Positions 44,781 through 47,980 of a DNA stretch of 64,000 nt are shown piece by piece. Location of the stretch: assembly GCA_021158125.1 (NCBI GenBank), contig JAGGVF010000022.1, positions 1-64,000 on the forward strand, given 5' to 3'. This stretch comes from Candidatus Bathyarchaeota archaeon. GTDB taxonomy: Archaea > Thermoproteota > Bathyarchaeia > Bathyarchaeales > WUQV01. The notes below the pieces were generated by a model. That model had not been told where the DNA came from. It was given only the letters and a program-made list of their open reading frames with translations, and did not search any database. Every line of letters starts with the position of its first letter. Position 1 is the first letter of the stretch. The position numbers were made by a program, and so were the translations under genes.

Positions 44781-45329
44781 ATGGTGAAAGACATGAGTTT
44801 TGAACGTGAATATAAAGGCGTGAAAATTCGAGTTGTACGTGGAGATATAACAAAAATGGAAGTTGAAGCCATAGTTAATCCGGCTAACAGCCTACTCGTT
44901 ATGGGCGGCGGAGTAGCCGGAGCCATAAAGAGAGCTGGGGGAAAAGAAATAGAGGAAGAAGCTGTTAAACATGCTCCAATACCCGTTGGAGAAGCTGTGG
45001 CAACAACCGCCGGAAGGCTTAATGCAAAATACGTCATACATGCACCTACTATGGAAAGGCCGGCTATGAGAATAGGGCCGGAAAATGCGAGAAAAGCCAT
45101 GAAAGGAGCATTAGAATGCGCAAGAAAGCTGAAGGTGAAAAGCATAGCCTTTCCCGGACTTGGAACGGGAGTAGGCGGGGTTACCGCAGAAGAAGCCGCT
45201 AACGTAATGGTTGAAGAATTAAAGAGGCATATTGACGAAGGAACATCTCTCAAGGAAGTTTTGCTTGTCGGATTCGGTGAAGAACTAGCTAAAGCCTTTG
45301 AAAGGGCTGTTGCCGAAATCATCCGTTAA
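44781..45329 (+). CDS. Macro-domain ADP-ribose-binding protein
   Basis: The 182-residue protein is one macro domain: RGDITKMEVEAIVNPANSLLVMGGGVAGAI (shown by VNPANS and GGGVAGAI), PVGEAVATTAG, YVIHAPTM and SIAFPGLGTGVGG. These bind ADP-ribose, and some members remove ADP-ribose from proteins or hydrolyse ADP-ribose-1''-phosphate. The start is ATG 44781. Just downstream is the promoter of the HTH-Fae-HPS gene. Confidence 0.93.
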   Translation: MVKDMSFEREYKGVKIRVVRGDITKMEVEAIVNPANSLLVMGGGVAGAIKRAGGKEIEEEAVKHAPIPVGEAVATTAGRLNAKYVIHAPTMERPAMRIGPENARKAMKGALECARKLKVKSIAFPGLGTGVGGVTAEEAANVMVEELKRHIDEGTSLKEVLLVGFGEELAKAFERAVAEIIR

Positions 45330-45346
45330 TCTTATAATACAATTAA

Positions 45347-45503
45347 TGTCGACAACTGTCGGATAAGACGGAGAGAGCAAGCAAAATGTAGTCATATTCA
45401 TTGTATAATTCTCTCTGTTTATCCTTTTTAATTTCGTCAGTATCCTACACTTAGTTGTCGGGTAATGTCGGCATATTTTATGCGTCTCCGACAAGCTTTT
45501 ATA
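45347..45503. promoter_or_regulatory. Promoter region with repeated TGTCGG/CCGACA sites before HTH-Fae-HPS
   Basis: The region contains TGTCGACA (45347-45354), TGTCGG at 45357-45362, 45456-45461 and 45466-45471, and inverted CCGACA at 45488-45493. The last site directly precedes TTTTATA (45497-45503), the likely TATA box, which would start transcription near 45525. Two of the sites are ten bases apart, one helical turn. This looks like an operator array for a DNA-binding protein, possibly the HTH domain encoded by the next gene. Confidence 0.6.
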
Positions 45504-45553
45504 GGAGTTCCTTTTATCTGATTATTTCGGTGCGAAGCTTGACTGTTTCAGTA

Positions 45554-46984
45554 ATGAAGCCTAAGTCAAGAGATGAACTTGTTGAATTGTTAAAGGCAGC
45601 TATGAAACGGGAGATGAGTCTCCGTAAGGCTAAGGGATTAGCTGTGAAGCCAACTATTTCTGGGACAGCTAAAATTTTGGGTATTCACCGTGACACACTT
45701 TATGAATGGATGAAAGAGTATAATGTTAACTTTGAGGAGATTGCACGGGAAATAATTTCTCCAGCTAAAATCTTGGAGGAACCGGAAAAGCATGTTTATT
45801 TAATTGGAGAGGCTCTTCTCGGCTCTGGAAATGAAGTTGCCCATGTAGATTTATTGATAGGTGATAAAGACGGCCCTGTCGGCGAGGCTTTTGCGCATAG
45901 TCTTTCAAGTATGTCGGCTGGCCATACGCCTTTACTTGCAGTTATTAGGCCTAACCTTCCACCTAAGCCTCATACAGTTATAGTTCCGAAGGTTACGATT
46001 AGAAATATGGATGATGCAAACAAGATTTTTGGACCTGCGCAGGCTGCTGTTGCAAAGGCTGTTGCCGACGCTGTTGAGGAGGGAATAATTCCTAAGGACA
46101 AAGTTGACGATTGGGTTGTAATTTGCAGCGTTTTCATTCATCCAGACGCAAAGGATTACAGGCGCATCTACCACTTTAACTATGGGGCAACCAAGCTGGC
46201 TTTGAAAAGAGCCCTAGCTAAGTATCCTCCGCTGGAAAAGATTATGTATGATAAGGACAGAGCAAAACATCCAATAATGGGATTTCAAGTGCCGCGGCTT
46301 TGGCGACCGCCATACTTGCAGATAGCCCTTGACATTCCAAGCCTAGAAAGGACAAAGAAGATTATTCAGCAAATACCGAAAAGCGACCGCATAATACTGG
46401 AAGTTGGAACTCCTCTTCTGAAGCGGTACGGGACAAAGGTTATTCGGGAACTTAGAGAAGTTGCCAAAGACATGTTTATCATCGCCGACTTGAAAACTTT
46501 GGATGTTGGAAAAGTTGAAGTAGACATAGCCTATGAGGAAACCGCCGACGCCGTTGTTGCCGCAGGCCTCGCAGACATCCCGACCCTTAACAACTTCATA
46601 TACGAAGCCAAAAGACTTGGAATCTACGCCTTCATAGACCTCATGTACGTTGACAACCCAGTTGAGAAACTTAAGCAGCTAAAGGACTTTCCAGACGTAA
46701 TAATAATTCACCGTGCAATAGATGTTGAAACAGGCAGAACCTTAGGTTTAGACCTAATTCCGAAACTTAGGAAAGAATTTAAGGATAAAAAATTCTTGGT
46801 TGCTGTTGCAGGCGGAATAATACCTGAAACTGCAAGAGAAGCCTTAGAAAAAGGTGCCGACATAATCATTGTTGGAAGATACATAACCCAGTCGAAAGAC
46901 ATTGAAAGAGCAGTTAGAGAATTCCTAAAAATAACACGAGAAATGCGAGAAGACATAGATCTCTACAGAGTCCATGTGGAGTAA
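45554..46984 (+). CDS. fae-hps: HTH-Fae-HPS fusion: formaldehyde-activating enzyme with hexulose-6-phosphate synthase
   Basis: Residues 1-78 form an extension with a Fis-type helix-turn-helix ([20 protein letters not shown]). Residues about 79-245 are Fae, which condenses formaldehyde with a pterin carrier: [32 protein letters not shown] (shown by its ends) and the catalytic His in AHVDLL. Residues about 260-470 are [39 protein letters not shown] and IIVGRYIT. In archaea the HPS direction usually releases formaldehyde and makes ribulose 5-phosphate. ATG 45554 is conservative; GTG 45530 is near the predicted transcription start. PRPP synthetase follows. Confidence 0.93.
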
Positions 46985-47095: not shown

Positions 47096-47980
47096 ATGAT
47101 AATAGTTCCCGGGCCTTCTTCGGCTAGTCTTGGAAGAAAAATGGCTGAAATATTGGAAGCTAAACTTGTTCCAGTTGCTTTCAAAAAATTTCCAGATGGT
47201 GAATCTTATCTTAGATTCGAAGGGGAAGTTGCGGGGGAAGAAGTTGTTGTTGTTCAGAGTACGGGTCCACCGCAGGATACGAGTCTCGTTCAGCTTTTAA
47301 TTTTGATAGATGCCGCCAAAGATTTGGGAGCAAAGCGTGTGACTGCTGTTGTTCCCTACTTGGCCTATGCAAGGCAAGATAAACGTTTCTTGCCGGGAGA
47401 AGCCATAAGTATACAAACTGTTGGAAAACTTTTGAAGGCTGCTGGCGTAGATGAACTGCTAACGGTAAACGTCCACGAAGAAAAAGTCTTAAAAAATTTT
47501 GGTTTTCCAGCTGAAAGCGTTTCTGCAATGAGTTTGCTGGCTGAATACTTTAAGTCAAAGGGTTTTCAAGGCGCTTTTTCTCTTGCCCCAGACCGTGGCG
47601 CAGTTCAACTTGCCGTAGAAGCCGCCGGAGTCTTAGGTGGAGAGTATGGATGGCTTGAAAAGAAGCGGGATCTCTACACGGGTGAAGCGAAGACTGAAGA
47701 GAAAATCCTTAACGTTTCTGGAAAGGACGTCATAATCTTTGATGATATCATAAGTACTGGCGGAACAGTTGCTAATGCCGTTAAAATTTTAAAGAAGCAG
47801 GGTGCAAGAAGGGTTTTTGCCGCTTGTGCTCATCCGTTAATGATTGGAAATGCAAAGGAAAAAATTTTGCAAAGCGGAGCAGAAGGCATAGTTGGAACGG
47901 ACTCTGTTCCAAGCGATGTGACAGTTGTTTCACTTGCCCCATTGCTCGCCAAGGTTTTAGCCGAGAAATTTAAGGGATAA
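47096..47980 (+). CDS. prs: Ribose-phosphate pyrophosphokinase (PRPP synthetase)
   Basis: The enzyme makes PRPP from ribose 5-phosphate and ATP. GPSSASLGRKMAEIL, KKFPDGESYLR, VPYLAYARQDKRF, the nucleotide-binding NVHEEKVLKNFG and the PRPP-binding loop VIIFDDIISTGGTVANA are visible. Its 294 residues are the archaeal class length. It sits 111 bases after Fae-HPS, in line with ribulose 5-phosphate supply for PRPP, and three bases before the THUMP methyltransferase. Confidence 0.95.
   Translation: MIIVPGPSSASLGRKMAEILEAKLVPVAFKKFPDGESYLRFEGEVAGEEVVVVQSTGPPQDTSLVQLLILIDAAKDLGAKRVTAVVPYLAYARQDKRFLPGEAISIQTVGKLLKAAGVDELLTVNVHEEKVLKNFGFPAESVSAMSLLAEYFKSKGFQGAFSLAPDRGAVQLAVEAAGVLGGEYGWLEKKRDLYTGEAKTEEKILNVSGKDVIIFDDIISTGGTVANAVKILKKQGARRVFAACAHPLMIGNAKEKILQSGAEGIVGTDSVPSDVTVVSLAPLLAKVLAEKFKG

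Follow-up and report, generated by a model that had tools for sequence, protein, structure and literature searches.

The HTH-Fae-Hps enzyme described here very probably controls its own production, since it carries a predicted DNA-binding domain, and matching sites are found at its promoter and almost nowhere else in the genome. Comparison of the 64,000-nucleotide stretch of bathyarchaeal DNA analysed here (the window) with related genomes shows a predicted operator of TGTCGG and inverted CCGACA sites that is conserved, helically phased, near-unique, dedicated to the HTH-Fae-Hps gene and tied to the helix-turn-helix (HTH) domain. We infer strongly that this fused HTH binds the sites, and with less confidence that binding is simultaneous and multivalent, that it represses and that a metabolite relieves it. 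Overall, we consider it highly probable that the sites are the dedicated operator of the downstream gene, acting through phased multivalent binding, negative autoregulation and metabolite relief. The protein would then most likely be a ‘trigger enzyme’ with a single target, its own promoter, which it would bind as a multivalent oligomer and repress.

The gene occupies 45530..46984 on the plus strand, with an uncertain start (GTG at 45530, TTG at 45539 or ATG at 45554), and encodes in one chain an N-terminal HTH domain (45554..45763, plus strand; approximately residues 1-70, counted from the ATG at 45554), a formaldehyde-activating enzyme domain (Fae; 45803..46279, plus strand, residues 84-242) and a 3-hexulose-6-phosphate synthase domain (Hps; 46310..46924, plus strand, residues 253-457). 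Fae matches PF08714 (E 2.8e-72) and TIGR03126 and aligns at full length with the structure 1Y5Y (E 1.5e-41), and Hps matches PF00215 (E 1.4e-31) and the HPS structures 9lj9 and 3f4w. The NCBIfam equivalog NF009833 (‘bifunctional 5,6,7,8-tetrahydromethanopterin hydro-lyase/3-hexulose-6-phosphate synthase’) spans both enzyme domains (residues 82-475) at 576 bits, against a cut-off of 274, with the HTH falling outside the model; by homology, the protein is predicted to be a clear member of the bifunctional Fae-Hps enzymes. A methanogen relative, Mhun_1628 of M. hungatei, is an active enzyme placed in the formation of ribulose-5-phosphate from fructose-6-phosphate (PMC5241800), and Bathyarchaeia have been inferred to run the ribulose monophosphate pathway in reverse (PMC8407382). 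A PRPP synthase gene downstream (47096-47980, annotated by eye) and a PHI gene elsewhere in the genome are consistent with a role in ribulose-5-phosphate formation. On the 5' side a macro-domain (ADP-ribose binding) gene adjoins on the same strand (44781-45329), as it does in several relatives (e.g. L030 and L238). The same genome holds a second Fae, fused to a DapA-like aldolase/synthase (L002:1486-2964; G000:C4, approximately 70180-71660, minus strand; 492 aa), which scores 253 bits against dapA TIGR00674 and 218 bits against Fae TIGR03126; a similar frame in genome G001 is interrupted by two stops.

The N-terminal domain resembles several HTH families without clearly exceeding any Pfam HTH model. 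Pfam HTH matches were obtained for 34 of 38 HTH-bearing members, all weak (best E 1.5e-5); the window protein reaches 22.2-22.6 against a cut-off of 22 for HTH_8 (Fis), which matches only six of the 38 (E 0.01), and HTH_28 fits more members yet stays below its own cut-off. An AlphaFold model of the domain is helical with core pLDDT above 90, Foldseek against the PDB returned no significant match (best E 0.66, to Rex, Fis and TetR-like folds), and the recognition helix HRDTL.W is invariant across the 38 diverse members. The original prediction had placed an HTH domain in the next gene: the domain is there, but as a fusion to the enzyme itself rather than as a separate regulator.

Five related sites precede the gene, at the places first proposed: four exact copies of TGTCGG/CCGACA and one palindromic variant. 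The distal pair comprises the palindrome TGTCGACA (a TGTCGA/TCGACA variant; 45347..45354, no strand assigned) and, 10 bp away, a TGTCGG within TGTCGGATAA (45357..45362, plus strand). Nearer the gene, two candidate TGTCGG sites on the plus strand (45456..45461 and 45466..45471) stand 10 bp from each other and 32 bp (three turns) and 22 bp (two turns), respectively, 5' of site A, the TATA-proximal CCGACA on the minus strand (45488..45493), which overlaps the predicted BRE. The TATA box, TTTTATA (45497..45503, plus strand), was assigned from sequence and aligns with the TATA boxes of orthologs. Two sites had been noted as lying one helical turn apart, as 45456 and 45466 do, and the distal pair repeats that spacing. 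The surrounding DNA proved as AT-rich as described, with 36% GC over the 224-nt gap 45330-45553; this gap holds the densest TGTCGG/CCGACA cluster of the window, with four exact sites against 0.06 expected from dinucleotide shuffles, none of which reached four in 5,000 trials (maximum two). Only three places in the entire genome (1.37 Mb) combine a TGTCGR with a YCGACA at a distance of 3-33 bp. A locus from a sister genus (L026) repeats the window layout with TGTCGA/TGTCGG and one CCGATA, reading TTTCGACACAAAGTGTCGG at the place of the distal palindrome, TGTCGGATAA again at the corresponding place directly 3' of the macro-domain gene, and TGTCGACTTTTGTCGG at the place of the 45466 site; several other relatives have a similar TGTCGG at the place of the distal 45357 site.

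Strong Fae-Hps matches occur in 119 of the 163 genomes of the order, most of them full-length including the HTH. The ortholog set comprised 87 HTH-bearing genes from that order whose upstream sequence was available; they form 59 clusters at 88% identity and come almost entirely from metagenome assemblies. Because the sequences share ancestry, the conservation counts below are not phylogenetically independent and p-values overstate independence. Of the 87 orthologs, 84 (56 of the 59 clusters) have site A a few bases before the TATA box, and it keeps a constant distance to the gene; in an alignment picked for having the site (those 56 clusters), its columns carry approximately 2 bits each and the flanks approximately none. 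The expectation that the motif would exceed chance and recur upstream of orthologs was thus strongly borne out by the shuffles and by site A alike. In 77 of the 87, a further TGTCGG covers the start codon (ATGTCGG) or follows it closely, 50-55 bp 3' of site A, mostly at 52-54 bp with a peak at 53. This start-codon site appears to be under constraint as DNA, rather than a side effect of a Met-Ser start, because the Ser2 codon is TCG in 81 of 83 cases, whereas TCG makes up 13% of the Ser codons of these genes (Fisher p 4e-63, from sequences that are not independent). The window promoter is without it, and its TTTTATA sits at a shifted spacing. Additional upstream sites fall mostly at -30..-32 (used in 23 of 82 orthologs), -40..-43, -52..-54, -73..-75 and -82..-85 from site A, the neighbours in the window being at -22 and -32. 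Among cluster representatives these sites are phased with site A at a period of 10.5-10.6 bp (R=0.78, n=56), a value equalled in none of 20,000 uniform simulations. The HTH-enzyme fusion, the group-wide arrangement and the start-codon site of most relatives all go beyond the original prediction.

The combination of CCGACA with a TATA box, searched as CCGACANNYTTAWATA, occurs in 98 of the 163 genomes, mostly once in each, with far fewer matches to a reversed control pattern. Places that were checked are HTH-Fae-Hps promoters with few exceptions, and most of those off the known orthologs are orthologs broken by contig ends; matches at other places are G056:C357, G065:C3 and G074:C17. The window's own promoter, whose spacing differs slightly, is not matched. 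A regulon beyond the gene itself was considered and rejected, because CCGACA-TATA places across the 163 genomes resolve almost entirely to HTH-Fae-Hps. No such operator was found at the PHI (HxlB) gene of the same genome (G000:C12:137359) or of seven relatives, nor a TGTCGG operator upstream of the DapA-Fae paralog (L002). One of the other places, G065:C3:483116 (L159:1617-1700), has further CCGACA and TGTCGG copies at +41 and +61 and precedes a secreted-looking gene starting MTQQTKTKTLTLTLLIILAATA; it is a possible second target, and site A of the Fae-Hps gene in this genome has decayed to CCGAGA.

The HTH domain and the sites also travel together. Across 257 genomes of the class, the domain was found in 121, all within the window's order and essentially once each, and only as part of the Fae-Hps fusion or fragments of it; no stand-alone copy was seen save contig-end fragments and one relic. 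HTH-less Fae-Hps genes of other lineages (12 loci) have no TGTCGG/CCGACA near the start. In G042 and G066 the HTH is cleanly deleted (MSGTEVKKPENRASGPTYLIG...) and both sites are altered, to CCGGCA and to ATGTCAGG or ATGACAGG; a second gene copy in G043 has neither HTH nor sites, and a second copy in G054, with HR of the helix changed to QL, has no sites. These four cases form one clade (support 98/83), so that they may represent only one or two events. The relic, in G002:C54 (L167:1468-1760), retains operator, TATA box and an HTH with an in-frame TAG, with no Fae-Hps behind it; an Hps-only frame lies elsewhere in that genome. An HTH-Fae fragment in an assembly containing N (L237; G148:C1, approximately 151700-152550) has a promoter in which TGTCGT/ACGACA replace TGTCGG/CCGACA, possibly a drift of site specificity.

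A separate lineage offers a comparison from another protein fold. Families f25-f27 of the class (16 genomes) encode Fae-Hps with an N-terminal ribbon-helix-helix (RHH) domain, which matches ParD antitoxins of the PDB by profile (3KXE, E 9e-5) and RHH_1 in 10 of 13 cases (best E 7.6e-6); the monomer model is of low confidence and its fold too weak to judge. TGTCGG occurs in none of the RHH-Fae-Hps promoters, where a different operator, GTGACACCTAGAGGTCAC, is predicted. Its pattern, GTGWCACNNNNAGGNCAC, is an imperfect palindrome that ends approximately 15 bp 5' of the TATA box, and in f27 genomes it stands at a fixed 33 bp from it (start to start). Whole-genome searches place it at RHH-Fae-Hps in 12 of the 16 genomes, with one extra match in G246; most RHH promoters have a second GTGACAC 51-53 bp farther upstream, and others have it at 62-64 or 40 bp. 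As the HTH and RHH groups separate on the Fae-Hps tree, and a phylum-wide sample outside the class yielded only short frames (434 aa or less) with no room for an extra domain, independent domain gains are the simplest reading. One genome, G211 (G211:C4; L229, approximately 81720-83130), encodes a Fae-Hps whose N-terminal HTH is of a third kind (GLNIAEMAQKYNVSRDTIERRLKFA); TGCCGC/GCGGCA flank its TATA box on both sides, 42 bp apart, which in this single genome only hints at a third domain capture.

How might such an enzyme regulate itself? The HTH of the oligomeric enzyme would recognise TGTCGG(A), with several protomers of one oligomer settling on sites at whole-turn spacing around the BRE and TATA box and, in most relatives, also covering the start codon five turns downstream. 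With site A overlapping the BRE and a further site at the start codon, just inside the gene, the protein once bound would be expected to impede TFB/TBP or RNA polymerase; these positions suggest repression, and exclusion of the transcription machinery would amount to negative autoregulation, as with Lrs14 or LrpA. Because Fae forms pentamers and HPS dimers, one oligomer could present several HTHs, which would explain the many whole-turn sites and why the two lineages share a similar spacing of five turns, though the multi-HTH oligomer is a weaker part of the model. The enzyme would form ribulose-5-phosphate from hexulose-6-phosphate and capture the released formaldehyde, and a substrate or product could alter the oligomer and so relieve repression. 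The trigger enzymes PutA, BirA and NadR (PMC8249747) would lead one to expect, by analogy, a metabolite signal of this kind (formaldehyde, ribulose-5-phosphate or hexulose-6-phosphate). A broader reading, tentative though not far short of an even chance, is that Fae-Hps has repeatedly captured unrelated DNA-binding domains within Bathyarchaeia (an HTH in the window's order, an RHH in another and perhaps the third HTH of G211), each with its own operator. The oligomeric enzyme body would then set the common spacing of approximately five helical turns (52-53 bp), the pentameric Fae and dimeric Hps forming a multivalent ring able to bridge the promoter or wrap it, with its own active sites serving as sensors of formaldehyde or hexulose/ribulose phosphate.

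Other readings of the same sites must be weighed against autoregulatory repression. That the cluster reflects chance, codon bias or a repeat or methylation motif has a negligible probability: the window does hold slightly more TGTCGG than expected (22 versus 13), but the shuffles, the fixed position in 84 of 87 orthologs and the roughly one CCGACA-TATA place per genome all speak against it, and the ortholog comparison refutes it. Control at the level of translation, with the start-codon TGTCGG acting as a site on the mRNA, draws on its position over or near the start codon in 77 of 87 orthologs; we regard it as very improbable, as site A and the other upstream sites precede the TATA box, and hence lie outside the mRNA, and phasing at 10.5 bp is a property of DNA. 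The sites might instead form a real operator bound by a separate transcription factor, the fused HTH serving structure, RNA or protein contact. HTH domains are indeed poor predictors of specificity; however, the operator exists only with an intact fused HTH and is lost with it, it is exchanged where the fused domain is an RHH, and an independent factor serving a single target in each genome is unlikely to follow the fusion so exactly, all of which makes this reading improbable.

Closer to our own reading is one in which the same protein binds the same sites to activate, or to activate at low and repress at high concentration in the manner of Ss-LrpB. On archaeal promoters, activators of the Lrp type bind a few bp 5' of the BRE (PMC2995911), the end of the RHH operator some 15 bp from the TATA box is a possible activator seat, and upstream sites at -31 and -53 are common. 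Yet conservation is highest at the two sites that overlap the BRE and the start codon, and their position leads one to expect bound protein to block TFB/TBP or RNA polymerase; we consider activation or such a dual role unlikely, if worth keeping in view. The preferred reading of HTH-Fae-Hps as regulator of its own operator, in essence the pairing that the original prediction suggested, is supported at the level of sequence by conservation across 87 orthologs, helical phasing, genome uniqueness, the coupled loss of HTH and sites, and the joint swap of domain and operator in the RHH lineage.

Enzymes of this kind have precedents, for which Commichau and Stulke (2008) are said to be a source. PutA, for instance, carries an RHH domain, which parallels the RHH-Fae-Hps lineage. 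Like HTH-Fae-Hps, the trigger enzymes PutA, BirA and NadR of E. coli join a metabolic enzyme to a DNA-binding domain (PMC8249747), and HTH-Fae-Hps would seem, like PutA, to regulate one target only, the transcription unit that encodes it. What differs here is the enzyme, Fae-Hps, an archaeal TATA/BRE promoter with sites phased around its core, the capture by one enzyme of at least two unrelated DNA-binding domains, and that regulation is as yet a prediction. Fae-Hps of Methanosarcina barkeri was reportedly described by Goenrich in 2005. Methanogen Fae-Hps proteins (M. barkeri; Mhun_1628, PMC5241800) have the same two enzyme domains in the same order, but the known Fae-Hps model includes neither an N-terminal HTH nor an RHH, and the extra domain of the window protein lies outside it. 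Autoregulation at an archaeal core promoter, as proposed here, is established for LrpA of Pyrococcus and Lrs14 and Ss-LrpB of Sulfolobus, the last with cooperative sites and DNA wrapping (PMC2995911); these, however, are dedicated transcription factors of other families without such an enzyme domain, and no homology was found between them and the window HTH. ParD/CopG-type RHH antitoxin regulators resemble only the RHH-Fae-Hps lineage and not the window protein, and there the RHH is fused to an enzyme with no toxin partner seen. No description of the arrangement was found in PMC papers that treat Fae or Hps together with helix-turn-helix or ribbon-helix-helix, an absence that is not proof; trigger enzymes are a known kind, and to our knowledge the enzyme, the archaeal promoter architecture and the repeated domain capture are new.

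Bathyarchaeia are abundant and uncultured, and their control of transcription is almost unknown. The present comparison supplies a predicted regulator, its site and its target, in an arrangement that spans a large group of uncultured archaea and is paralleled in a second lineage by an unrelated domain with unrelated sites; a single purified protein and a single DNA fragment would suffice to test the prediction. If true, an archaeal enzyme would double as its own regulator at the ribulose-5-phosphate-making, formaldehyde-releasing step, which must stay in balance. Two unrelated domains on one enzyme, each with a new operator, would constitute a natural experiment on the evolution of autoregulation, and a common spacing would link operator geometry to the quaternary structure of the enzyme.
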